64,000 bases of DNA. Source: Candidatus Eiseniibacteriota bacterium. GTDB lineage: Bacteria; Orphanbacterota; Orphanbacteria; Orphanbacterales; Orphanbacteraceae. Below, one piece after another: positions 10,665-14,159 of this stretch; positions within the stretch are counted from its first letter, which is position 1; each line of letters opens with the position of its first letter. The position numbers were made by a program, and so were the translations under genes. The stretch lies in contig JAJCZU010000006.1 in assembly GCA_029262235.1 (NCBI GenBank), positions 322,934 through 386,933 of the forward strand. Reading direction: 5' to 3'. The notes beneath the pieces were generated by a model. That model saw nothing but the letters and a program-made list of their open reading frames with translations, made no database searches and was not told the origin of the DNA.

Positions 10665-11009
10665 TTTCGGCACCTTCCTGCGGCTTTACAGTCGTCGAGG
10701 GGCGTCGCCGCCCCGGACCGGCACGAGAGTTTCGCGCGTATTCCGAATATCGACGCGCGGGAAGCCCCCTTTAGGCGAGAATGGATCGGGCCCGGACCGC
10801 GAGGAGGACAGCGTGGGCTTCGGAGGGAGAATGGGCCCGTCGAAGCCCCTGGCGCCGCGAATTGCGCGCGAGAGGACCGCCGTAAACGGCATTGCGGAAC
10901 CCGCCTCGCGGCTGTTTCAACTTTCCGGACCGGACCGTCATTTTTCCTGTTGACGGGCGAAACATATGTGTAGTACTTTCTGTGCAGTGCTCAGGGAGGT
11001 ACTCGCACG
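10665..11009. other. Divergent intergenic region before the dnaE-like/lexA operon
   Basis: 345 bases without a supportable gene. Near its right end TTGACG (10952-10957) is followed by an A+T-richer stretch with ACATATGT and AGTACT palindromes and then the ribosome site AGGGAGG, so the operon promoter is probably here. I looked for a LexA operator of the E. coli, Bacillus, alpha-proteobacterial and cyanobacterial types and found no convincing match; AGTACTTTCTGTGC at about 10974 is the nearest and is imperfect. Confidence 0.4.
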
Positions 11010-13523
11010 ATGTATGCACCGCTTCACATCAAGACCCGCTTTTCACCGCTGGGATCGCTCCTTTCGGCTGACGACGTCGTCCAGGCGCTTCATGAGCGGA
11101 AAATCCCCGCATGTGGCGTCCGGGACGACGGGACACTGTACGGGGCCTACGCCGTCCGCCGTGCCGCACGCGGCACCGGTATCCGTGTCGCGGTGGGGGT
11201 CGACCTCCCCATCTCGTTCCCGATTCGCGAAGGAGTCGAGTTGCGGTCCGTCCTGGGCTTTCTCGCGGTTGGATTGAAGGGGGAGCAGGCCCTCGATCGT
11301 CTCGTTCGCCTGTACTGGGAGCGGAAAGAGCGGGGAATCGATTCCCTTGCGCTTCAGGATCTTCATCAAGCCAGGAAACATCTGCGCTTCGTTCTGTCCG
11401 GATCCAATGGTCCCGTGCTTGCGTGCCTTCGCAAGGGACGGCTCGCCGACGCCTGGAAGATCGCCACGGTCCTTTACGGGGCGGTCGGTAATCATATCGT
11501 TGTCGAATCCGGGCACAGCGGTCTCGACGGCGAGGATTTGACAGGACCGTTCTACAGGGAAATGGCGTCTCGATTCGAAATCCCGCTGGTCGCCTCTTCG
11601 CCAGTTCGCTACCTTCGGCGCGAAGACGCGGAAATTCTCCGGGCGGTCCGCGGACTCTCCCCGGAAGAACCGACAGACAACGACCACTGCTATCTACCGT
11701 CTCCTCTTACGATGCGAAATCGCTACGGCAACGATGCGCCCACGATCAAGGAAACACTCGATGTTGCCATGCTATGCACCGAGAGCGGCGACAGGGGAAC
11801 GAAAAGGGAAGCCTCACGCGATCACTTTCTCCGAGTCTGCATGGACAGAATCAACACGCTCTACAAGAGCGAACTGAAGTGGAAGCGGGAAGAGATCGAC
11901 CAGCGTTTCTGGCGTGAGTACTGGAAAGTGGAAGAAGAGGGGAATCTCGATCTCGTCGTATCCCTCGCCGGCCTGATCGAGCGGGCGACGGAAGCCGCAA
12001 AGGGGGCCTCTTTTCAGGCTAACTTCCTCGAAGGAACGCTCATCGCCTATCTGCTCGGCTGGACGACCGTCGACCCGGTCAGTGCCGATCTGCTGGCCGT
12101 CGAAGACAGCGAGCGAAACGAAGACGGGGTTGTCATCGAAGGGAATCGCGGATTCCTGCGAACGCTGCGCTCGCTGATCACGACGTCGAACGCTCCCGCC
12201 TACAGTTGCTTGATTGAACCGCAAAGATTATCGCGCGAGGATCAGCGCATCCTCGTCGAAACGTTGGCGTCCGCTGGGAAGGGTGCCGGGCACGATCCAA
12301 AAAAACAATCCACCCACAGTCTGTTCGAGCCCCACAACCGAACAAACCACCGCCCGGTCCCTTCCGAGAGGATGCCCTCGCTATTGAACCCGCCTTTCAT
12401 CACAGACTATGTTGTCAGGCGAAGTCGATTCACGTTTCGACATTCGGAAGAATTCGGGTGGAATGAAAAGCCGACAGCTTCCGTTGCGCTCCGCGTCAGT
12501 GATCTGCACGAAGCGCTTTCCCTGACGGTACAGCCGTCAGCCGGGGAAGAGGCCGCTCCCGTATGGGACTCCGAATGGATCCGATTACTCTCCGGGAATC
12601 GAGACATCCAGGATGTGAGCGTGGAACTTCGGAATCCTTCCGACTGGACTCTGATGCTCGATAACAGCGATTCCGCCCAGGAGGCGCTTGCCCTCATCGG
12701 ACGAGTGCGTGCGGGTGAGATCCCGAAGCCCCTGGTTGGTTCACGTATTAACGAATGCCTGGAGGAAACTGAAGGTATTCCGGTCTATCGCGAGCAGTTC
12801 GTGCTCGTCATTCAGGCAATCACGGGTTACGCGCACGAGAGGGCGGAGCAGTTGCTGGGTAAGCTGCAGAACGAGGATCCGAGAATGCTGGCGCGCGAGA
12901 GCCATGACTTTATTGCCGCGGTCGTGCGCGAGGGTGCTTCCTCGCTCTACGGGGATCGGGTGTTTTCATTCCTCCTGACAATGGCGGAACGTGCCCTGCC
13001 CCGCGCACGGAATGAAGAGAAAGCGCTGCTCCTCCGACGCGTGGTTTCTGCCGCGCGCACGGACAAGGATCGATTCTGGATGCGACTCATCAATGGATTG
13101 CAGAGAGAAGAGCACAGTGGCACTCGGAAAGTCGTAAGACAGTGGATGGCGCTGTCCGCGCGGGATGGCATGGAGTGGCAGCCGCTTTCGATCAATGAAA
13201 GCAATGCCGAATGCGAAGTCGTCGCCCCGGGTGTGATCCGTCAGGGACTCGCCGGGATTCCCGGGCTGAGCCGTACCGAGGCTCTGGCGATCCTGCAGGC
13301 CCGCAATACTGGTGGGAGTTTCCGTTCGGCCGCCGACTTTCTGGATCGGATGCTGGGAAGCGCTATCTCTCGACCGGTGTTGATTCGTCTCGCGCGGTCT
13401 TTACAGGACGACGGATTCCGGCTCGAAAAGCGAGGAGTGCGTTCGTCGCGAAAATCGCGCAAGGGCGGGGCGGTATCGGAAACGGGACAGGTTTCTCTTC
13501 CGTTTCAGAGCGCCGTGTCCTAA
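11010..13523 (+). CDS. Catalytically degenerate DnaE-like (C-family polymerase-like) protein
   Basis: 837 residues, against about 1050-1160 for DnaE. The order of DnaE blocks is kept. The N-terminus (HIKTRFSPLGSLLSADD, then GTLYGAYAVRRAARGTGIRVAVGVDL) follows the PHP domain, but TDHGNLYGA has become RDDGTLYGA, losing a metal ligand. Residues 341-358 (EGTLIAYLLGWTTVDPVS) match the palm segment GSLVAYxLGITDVDPLR. The catalytic PDxDxDF that should follow is replaced by GVVIEGNRGF (373-382). Residues 576-640 (VGSRINECLEETEGIPVYREQ) match the fingers block with IVYQEQ, and 742-780 match the helix-hairpin-helix region. The C-terminus carries QVSLPF (827-832), a good sliding-clamp-binding hexapeptide. 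Followed 24 bases later by lexA. Inference: a non-polymerising, clamp-binding SOS factor. The match is weak in primary sequence, so fold prediction should confirm it. Confidence 0.72.
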   Translation: MYAPLHIKTRFSPLGSLLSADDVVQALHERKIPACGVRDDGTLYGAYAVRRAARGTGIRVAVGVDLPISFPIREGVELRSVLGFLAVGLKGEQALDRLVRLYWERKERGIDSLALQDLHQARKHLRFVLSGSNGPVLACLRKGRLADAWKIATVLYGAVGNHIVVESGHSGLDGEDLTGPFYREMASRFEIPLVASSPVRYLRREDAEILRAVRGLSPEEPTDNDHCYLPSPLTMRNRYGNDAPTIKETLDVAMLCTESGDRGTKREASRDHFLRVCMDRINTLYKSELKWKREEIDQRFWREYWKVEEEGNLDLVVSLAGLIERATEAAKGASFQANFLEGTLIAYLLGWTTVDPVSADLLAVEDSERNEDGVVIEGNRGFLRTLRSLITTSNAPAYSCLIEPQRLSREDQRILVETLASAGKGAGHDPKKQSTHSLFEPHNRTNHRPVPSERMPSLLNPPFITDYVVRRSRFTFRHSEEFGWNEKPTASVALRVSDLHEALSLTVQPSAGEEAAPVWDSEWIRLLSGNRDIQDVSVELRNPSDWTLMLDNSDSAQEALALIGRVRAGEIPKPLVGSRINECLEETEGIPVYREQFVLVIQAITGYAHERAEQLLGKLQNEDPRMLARESHDFIAAVVREGASSLYGDRVFSFLLTMAERALPRARNEEKALLLRRVVSAARTDKDRFWMRLINGLQREEHSGTRKVVRQWMALSARDGMEWQPLSINESNAECEVVAPGVIRQGLAGIPGLSRTEALAILQARNTGGSFRSAADFLDRMLGSAISRPVLIRLARSLQDDGFRLEKRGVRSSRKSRKGGAVSETGQVSLPFQSAVS

Positions 13524-13547: not shown

Positions 13548-14159
13548 ATGAAACGACTGACCGACAGGCAGAAAGAAATCTACGATTTTCTTGTGGAGCA
13601 TTACCACGAGAACGGGTATCCGCCGACGATCCGGGAGATCGGGTTCCGATTCGGGATCAAATCGACGAAGGGTGTCGTGGATCATCTGACAGCCCTCGAG
13701 CGCAAGGGGTATATCAAGCGTGAGGTGGGCAAGTCCCGGGCGCTTGAGCTGAACTACATCGAACGCCCGGAATCCGATGCCGGAGTGCCTCTGCTCGGGC
13801 GAATTGCCGCCGGGCTTCCGAATGTCGCCGATGAGAACGTCGAAGATCGGTTTCAGATCGACCCGTCGTTTCTGTCCGGCAAAAACGAGTTCCTTCTTCG
13901 GGTACGCGGCGACAGCATGATCGAGGCGTTCATCACGGAGGGGGACATGATTCTCGTTCGTCCGACGACCGATGTTCGCAATCACGATATCGTAGTGGCA
14001 TTGATGGGGGACGAGGCAACGGTCAAGTACTTCTATCGGAAGGGAGACCAGATCGAGCTGCGGCCCGCGAACCGGACCATGAAGCCGATTCCGGTCGATC
14101 CGAATGACGGTGAGTTTCGCATTCTGGGAAAAGTCGTCGGTTTGTTTCGCTACATGTAG
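13548..14159 (+). CDS. lexA: LexA, SOS-response repressor
   Basis: 203 residues. A winged-helix domain (1-70; TDRQKEIYDFLVEHY, PPTIREIGFRFGIKS) is joined to an S24 peptidase domain. The self-cleavage site is Ala88-Gly89 in RIAAGLP; the catalytic dyad is Ser123 (RGDSM) and Lys160 (EATVKYF). RecA-stimulated autoproteolysis releases DNA-damage genes. It lies second in an operon behind the DnaE-like gene, with GAAGGAG seven or so bases before the ATG, so the polymerase-like gene is presumably under its own repressor. The recognition helix differs from the E. coli one, in keeping with a non-E. coli operator. Confidence 0.96.
   Translation: MKRLTDRQKEIYDFLVEHYHENGYPPTIREIGFRFGIKSTKGVVDHLTALERKGYIKREVGKSRALELNYIERPESDAGVPLLGRIAAGLPNVADENVEDRFQIDPSFLSGKNEFLLRVRGDSMIEAFITEGDMILVRPTTDVRNHDIVVALMGDEATVKYFYRKGDQIELRPANRTMKPIPVDPNDGEFRILGKVVGLFRYM

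Follow-up and report, generated by a model that had tools for sequence, protein, structure and literature searches.

In the 64,000-nucleotide stretch of DNA analysed here (the window), an open reading frame for a catalytically dead homologue of the replicative polymerase subunit DnaE (hereafter iDnaE) is preceded by a putative SOS promoter and followed, 24 bp downstream, by the start of lexA. The features of this locus, all on the + strand, are the following.

10950..10955, +: −35-like TTGACG of the operon promoter, inferred from sequence; TTGAC and then the operator are found in six of six relatives
10956..10975, +: LexA-type operator GGCGAAACATATGTGTAGTA, its right half perfect; the palindrome is common to the dnaE2 and imuB-C/polY promoters
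11010..13523, +: iDnaE open reading frame, 837 aa, ATG start
11022..11507, +: PHP domain (Pfam PF02811, residues 5-166), with eight of nine metal ligands changed
12126..12155, +: palm remnant GVVIEGNRGF in place of PDxDxDF, from alignment to the genome's own DnaE1
12741..12932, +: fingers-domain stretch including GIPVYREQF (Pfam PF17657, residues 578-641)
13170..13400, +: (HhH)2 DNA-binding module (Pfam PF14579, residues 721-797, E 3.5e-13)
13488..13505, +: predicted beta-clamp-binding motif QVSLPF; Q-x-x-[LF]-x-[FL] in six of six iDnaEs, at the DnaE1 clamp-motif position
13548..14159, +: lexA, 203 aa (TIGR00498, 237.9 bits against a cut-off of 110.95)

Architecture, metal sites and clamp motif of iDnaE

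An earlier note on this DNA had read the protein as keeping the order of the DnaE blocks, and this is borne out by the PHP, DNA_pol3_finger and HHH_6 matches above cut-off in a Pfam scan and by a profile alignment of five iDnaE orthologues with thirteen DnaE1s, which spans the whole protein (E 2.5e-84) and covers the PHP, palm, fingers and HhH architecture of DnaE. Two of the three Pfam models that the note had put forward, PF02811 and PF14579, were thus found, but the third, the PF07733 palm HMM, had no match in the window protein. Moreover, NCBIfam returned a DnaE match at 5e-35, and the top matches in the PDB were all Pol III alpha subunits (Taq and E. coli). An AlphaFold2 model from a 35-sequence alignment (pLDDT 81, pTM 0.77), used instead of a poor earlier run on 6 sequences (pLDDT 64), is likewise DnaE-like, with Pol III alpha as its closest match in the PDB comparison (TM 0.64 to 5fkw, E. 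coli alpha in a DNA-bound complex) and with a disordered tail that bears the clamp motif. DnaE1s are among the sequences of this alignment and may bias the model towards DnaE, so the fold speaks for compatibility more than it gives independent proof. From sequence and model combined, the window ORF is a C-family DnaE homologue in its predicted fold. It has the fold and the PHP-palm-fingers-HhH-clamp motif order of DnaE1/Pol III alpha (Taq, PDB ID: 3e0d and 2hpi; E. coli, PDB ID: 2hnh and 5fkw), to which it is about 17% identical, but lacks the Asp triad, the PHP ligands and the OB/tau-binding C-terminus.

According to a 2013 survey, which had excluded fragmentary sequences whose active site was not intact, the C-family Asp triad (E. 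coli D401, D403 and D555) is absolutely conserved (PMC3919608). Here, GVVIEGNRGF (residues 373-382) does overlay PDxDxDF, as had been claimed, and a broader alignment puts G, V, E and A opposite E. coli D401, D403, D405 and D555; the loss thus extends to the D555 equivalent, and also to the KSH fingers motif. The loss of a PHP metal ligand was likewise real but understated, as eight of the nine ligands are changed and the first His alone is kept, leaving one residue of the nine-residue HHDHEH[C/H]DH motif that a 2026 survey, in its main text, gives for an active PHP exonuclease (PMC12926913). Both the Asp triad and the PHP site are incomplete in all 22 iDnaEs aligned, and none of these relatives retains the catalytic triad. 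Single acidic residues do persist at one or two triad positions in some of them (the G386 protein reads PELDLDV at the catalytic motif, and those at L173 and L176 keep Asp at the D555 position), so that the loss of all three strictly holds for the window protein only. The palm HMM is still detected in the relatives at L128, L163 and L161, which makes the window's clade the most eroded of those scanned. Judged by these replacements, the polymerase and PHP metal sites of the window iDnaE are predicted to be unusable.

More conspicuously, QVSLPF (residues 827-832) aligns with the internal clamp motif of DnaE1 (QSNLF in this genome's DnaE1), where the alignment to DnaE1 also ends; with the protein truncated directly past the motif, iDnaE is left without the OB and tau-binding regions. 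The hexapeptide had been taken for the very end of the protein; it is real and not a chance occurrence, but five residues follow it, and the site is DnaE1's own. In the window and its relatives (6/6), the tails carry QVSLPF, QVSLPF, QIPLPL, QTAFPF, QTAFSF and QIALPL and are unalignable outside the hexamer, the chance of such a motif in a shuffled tail being 0.002-0.056 each. Conservation of this C-terminal motif therefore holds in the related genomes, and every iDnaE seen, across two phyla, keeps it despite 15-30% identity. The motif is accordingly under selection, as far as these sequences tell, and binding to the beta clamp is predicted.

The lexA operon, its operator and its distribution

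The gene downstream of iDnaE matches both LexA domains, DNA-binding (PF01726) and S24 peptidase (PF00717), and is the single LexA match of a protein search in this genome; the linkage noticed earlier is thus genuine, with both genes in one string. The palindrome TACTAnACAwwTGTnTAGTA is common to the iDnaE-lexA, imuB-C/polY and dnaE2 promoters of this and related genomes. A whole-genome scan allowing up to 3 mismatches gave five sites, against one in the reversed control, lying before iDnaE-lexA, imuB-C/polY, dnaE2 and a ribonucleotide reductase gene and between two ORFs. With a weight matrix from eight sites, the window's own among them, the operator was found in 6/6 iDnaE promoters of the window's clade, and no such operator was found at recA in that clade. 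By its predicted promoter operator, then, iDnaE is a putative member of the SOS (LexA) regulon. A LexA-like operator lies upstream of a ribonucleotide reductase-like gene at L069:1501-1520 (G000:C1:90301), which is likely a further SOS target.

In the family of the window (f1), lexA directly follows iDnaE in 6/6 related genomes having the gene, so the survey of relatives upholds the linkage. Between the window and its congener G001, identity is 76% for iDnaE and 98% for lexA, and iDnaE is under purifying selection, at a dN/dS of 0.134, with the HhH module as its most constrained part (0.086; fingers 0.12). Orthologues in G002-G005 are about 25-28% identical, each ahead of lexA; the G002 copy lies in two parts at two contig ends, with one in-frame TAA. 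G006, which shares its genus with G004, has no lexA, iDnaE, DnaE2 or second Y-family gene and keeps recA. Missing data (91% completeness) are an unlikely cause of this gap for three separate loci, and G006 has apparently lost the SOS mutagenesis genes naturally and as a complete set. As an aside, the NCBI labels of MAGs from one family (L073, L074 and L075) disagree, being given as Gemmatimonadetes, unclassified bacterium and Candidatus Eisenbacteria.

A single-sequence scan of genome contigs with iDnaE gave no match, and an alignment-based scan gave three loci, all in the window's own family. G178, which has only the domain in common with the window's genome, encodes, directly ahead of lexA, a DnaE homologue of 957 aa in which PEFELEV replaces PDIDIDF and the tail motif is QMELPF. 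Proteins like it, about 910-1010 aa long, are numerous in its phylum (80 genomes), and in all 17 of those examined (G178 and sixteen more) the Asp triad is incomplete and a clamp motif is present at the terminus. There, lexA lies immediately downstream of iDnaE in G178, G386, G398 and G414; by family, the two genes adjoin in 2/2 genomes of f159 and in two of f261, next to the 6/6 of f1. The weight matrix placed an operator before the iDnaEs of G178, G386, G398, G414 and L171 (where the contig ends before any lexA position is visible), and none before the eleven others of this phylum. G398 has a lexA-polY-dnaE2 cassette separate from its iDnaE-lexA pair, DnaE2-type genes occur in family f26, where no iDnaE was seen, and G415-G418 (genus g348) keep iDnaE with lexA and DnaE2 not detected. 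Since most second-phylum iDnaEs have neither lexA link nor operator, and g348 lacks detectable lexA or DnaE2, the SOS setting is not universal. In domain-wide searches, with mostly two candidates scored per genome and hence as a weak negative, no additional relative scored better than ordinary DnaE1. In f261 (L162, L163, L164, L166, L167, L169 and L179), the gene divergent from iDnaE codes for a coiled-coil/GAF-like protein that is conserved (ENERLKAAVEELSILNDI.. TAINSTLSLEEII) and might be a partner of iDnaE.

In a phylogenetic tree, a branch (96/95) separates all dead DnaEs from DnaE1 and DnaE2, albeit with long branches, and an AU test did not reject a single iDnaE clade without f13 (p 0.24); catalysis may have been lost once or several times, both being possible. 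A bolder reading, to which we give rather less than an even chance, makes iDnaE an ancient separate C-family lineage beside DnaE1/2/3 and PolC; it would have lost catalysis early, would persist in two or more phyla as a fork factor that binds the clamp without catalysis, and would have begun as a lexA-coupled, built-in SOS effector. A different type of dead DnaE, about 1050-1070 aa long, occurs at L126:7353-10505(+) and L127:7027-10242(+) (G018 and G166), where the polymerase Asp residues are lost, 7/9 PHP ligands are intact and a peptidyl-prolyl isomerase-like gene, not lexA, is next; it may represent a DnaE-shaped PHP nuclease.

Proposed function and its alternatives

Elsewhere, the genome has an active DnaE2, separate from iDnaE and with an intact PDLDIDI, and an imuB-C/PolY pair, both with the same type of operator as iDnaE-lexA. 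In this clade, the DnaE2 clamp motif is degenerate and without Gln (DGLF/EGMF/PGMF/EALF), and PolY bears a QxDL[YL] clamp motif of its own. At L054:2194-13966 (G000 contig C2, outside the window), an operator precedes an imuB-C-like 84-aa gene (a weak DUF6504 match) and PolY, with dnaE2 about 6 kb on under an operator of its own; the catalytic motif of PolY reads FLDDAY here and FLDEAY in relatives. No separate ImuA match was found, PF00154 giving one RecA-family gene.

Our leading reading, to which we give nearly an even chance, is that iDnaE most likely acts as a non-catalytic occupant of the clamp that is predicted to displace Pol III at damaged forks. Upon DNA damage, LexA would be cleaved and iDnaE made together with new LexA; iDnaE would dock on the beta clamp via QVSLPF and hold the primer-template with its fingers and HhH parts. 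As it could neither extend DNA nor join the tau/clamp-loader assembly, it would compete Pol III alpha off the clamp, and the stalled fork or gap would be held while DnaE2 and PolY/ImuB-C, induced along with it, gain access to the 3' end, new LexA finally shutting the operon down. For the protein itself, this is suggested by the loss of the Asp triad and PHP site, the kept clamp motif, the truncation past it, the DnaE fold and the dN/dS of 0.134; for its setting, by the adjacency to lexA, the operator common to dnaE2, imuB-C/polY and the ribonucleotide reductase gene, the joint absence from G006 and the Gln-less clamp motif of DnaE2. Against it stand the non-universal SOS setting, the lack of an operator at recA and the in-frame TAA in G002; moreover, the heavily eroded palm of the window's family makes a polymerase-like grip on DNA uncertain.

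The earlier note had instead assigned iDnaE an ImuB-like recruiting role, in which the clamp-bound protein would bring DnaE2 and/or PolY-ImuB-C into a mutasome and supply the clamp contact that DnaE2 is missing. The operator shared by iDnaE, dnaE2 and imuB-C/polY in the window's clade fits such a helper, as do the degenerate DnaE2 motif and the joint absence of iDnaE, DnaE2, lexA and the second polY from G006, and the genome's DnaE2, apparently active PolY and ImuB-C resemble the DnaE2B module as set out in the main text of PMC12926913. However, PolY has its own clamp motif, no interaction motif for DnaE2 was identified, and DnaE2-type genes occur in f26, where no iDnaE was seen; in g348, iDnaE is kept with DnaE2 and lexA undetected, so neither of these can be required for what it basically does. 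A strict ImuB-like role is consequently not supported as first stated, and we rate the adaptor as possible but rather doubtful, below the rating of that note.

That iDnaE persists without DnaE2, and retains its clamp motif while catalysis and the tau-binding region are gone, would also suit a decoy alpha that solely occupies clamps and slows replication as an SOS checkpoint, unconnected with translesion synthesis; yet the fingers and HhH are recognisable and constrained (dN/dS 0.12 and 0.09) beyond the needs of a plain clamp plug, and we regard such a brake as unlikely. A residual or new enzyme, for instance a nuclease from changed PHP or palm residues, has parallels in the separate f13 type of dead DnaE with 7/9 PHP ligands and in a PolX with a dead polymerase site and a live PHP (main text of PMC12926913), but with one PHP ligand left in the window protein and changes that vary among relatives, it is very improbable. 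Lastly, a decaying pseudogene or assembly artefact, to which the fast divergence (76% identity against 98% for lexA) and the stop codon in the G002 copy might point, is scarcely credible given a frame open in five other genomes and a second phylum, and decay is ruled out by the dN/dS of 0.134 and the conserved tail motif.

Relation to known polymerases and significance

Among polymerase homologues of the Y and X families, loss of catalysis is familiar, and ImuB and iPolY are dead polymerases already known in SOS. Like ImuB, the dead Y-family member of ImuA-ImuB-DnaE2, iDnaE appears from its sequence to be a LexA-regulated polymerase paralogue that has lost catalysis and kept a clamp motif; unlike ImuB, it has a C-family fold with no IMS match and no ImuB-C domain, is paired with lexA alone and occurs also without DnaE2. 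It shares the C-family and an SOS-type operator with DnaE2/ImuC, the error-prone polymerase, which unlike iDnaE keeps PDxDxD (PDLDIDI in this genome). Both iPolY and PolX1, with dead polymerase sites, are precedents for homologues kept after catalysis loss, but they belong to other polymerase families, and such PolX keep the PHP nuclease, which the window iDnaE does not. The parts list of the DnaE2B, PolY, ImuB-C and RecA module recurs elsewhere in this genome, and the module's description in the main text of PMC12926913 includes no dead DnaE.

The earlier claim of an undescribed role agrees with the literature covered: no account of a dead DnaE appears in the 2013 survey (PMC3919608) or was found in the main text of the 2026 survey, which covers more than 3000 species whose genomes are complete (PMC12926913), and searches of the open-access journal literature for inactive DnaE gave nothing relevant. 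A dead C-family polymerase tied to lexA is new, pending a full survey of its distribution. With the iDnaE-lexA pair present in a second, distant group, iDnaE looks like a real, undescribed kind of DNA-damage protein, and proteins of this type are likely misannotated as DNA polymerase III subunit alpha. The bacterium itself is known only from environmental DNA. A conserved dead DnaE in a lexA operon would show a copy of the replicase turned into a DNA-damage effector, and it makes the passage of the clamp from Pol III to translesion polymerases a testable question.
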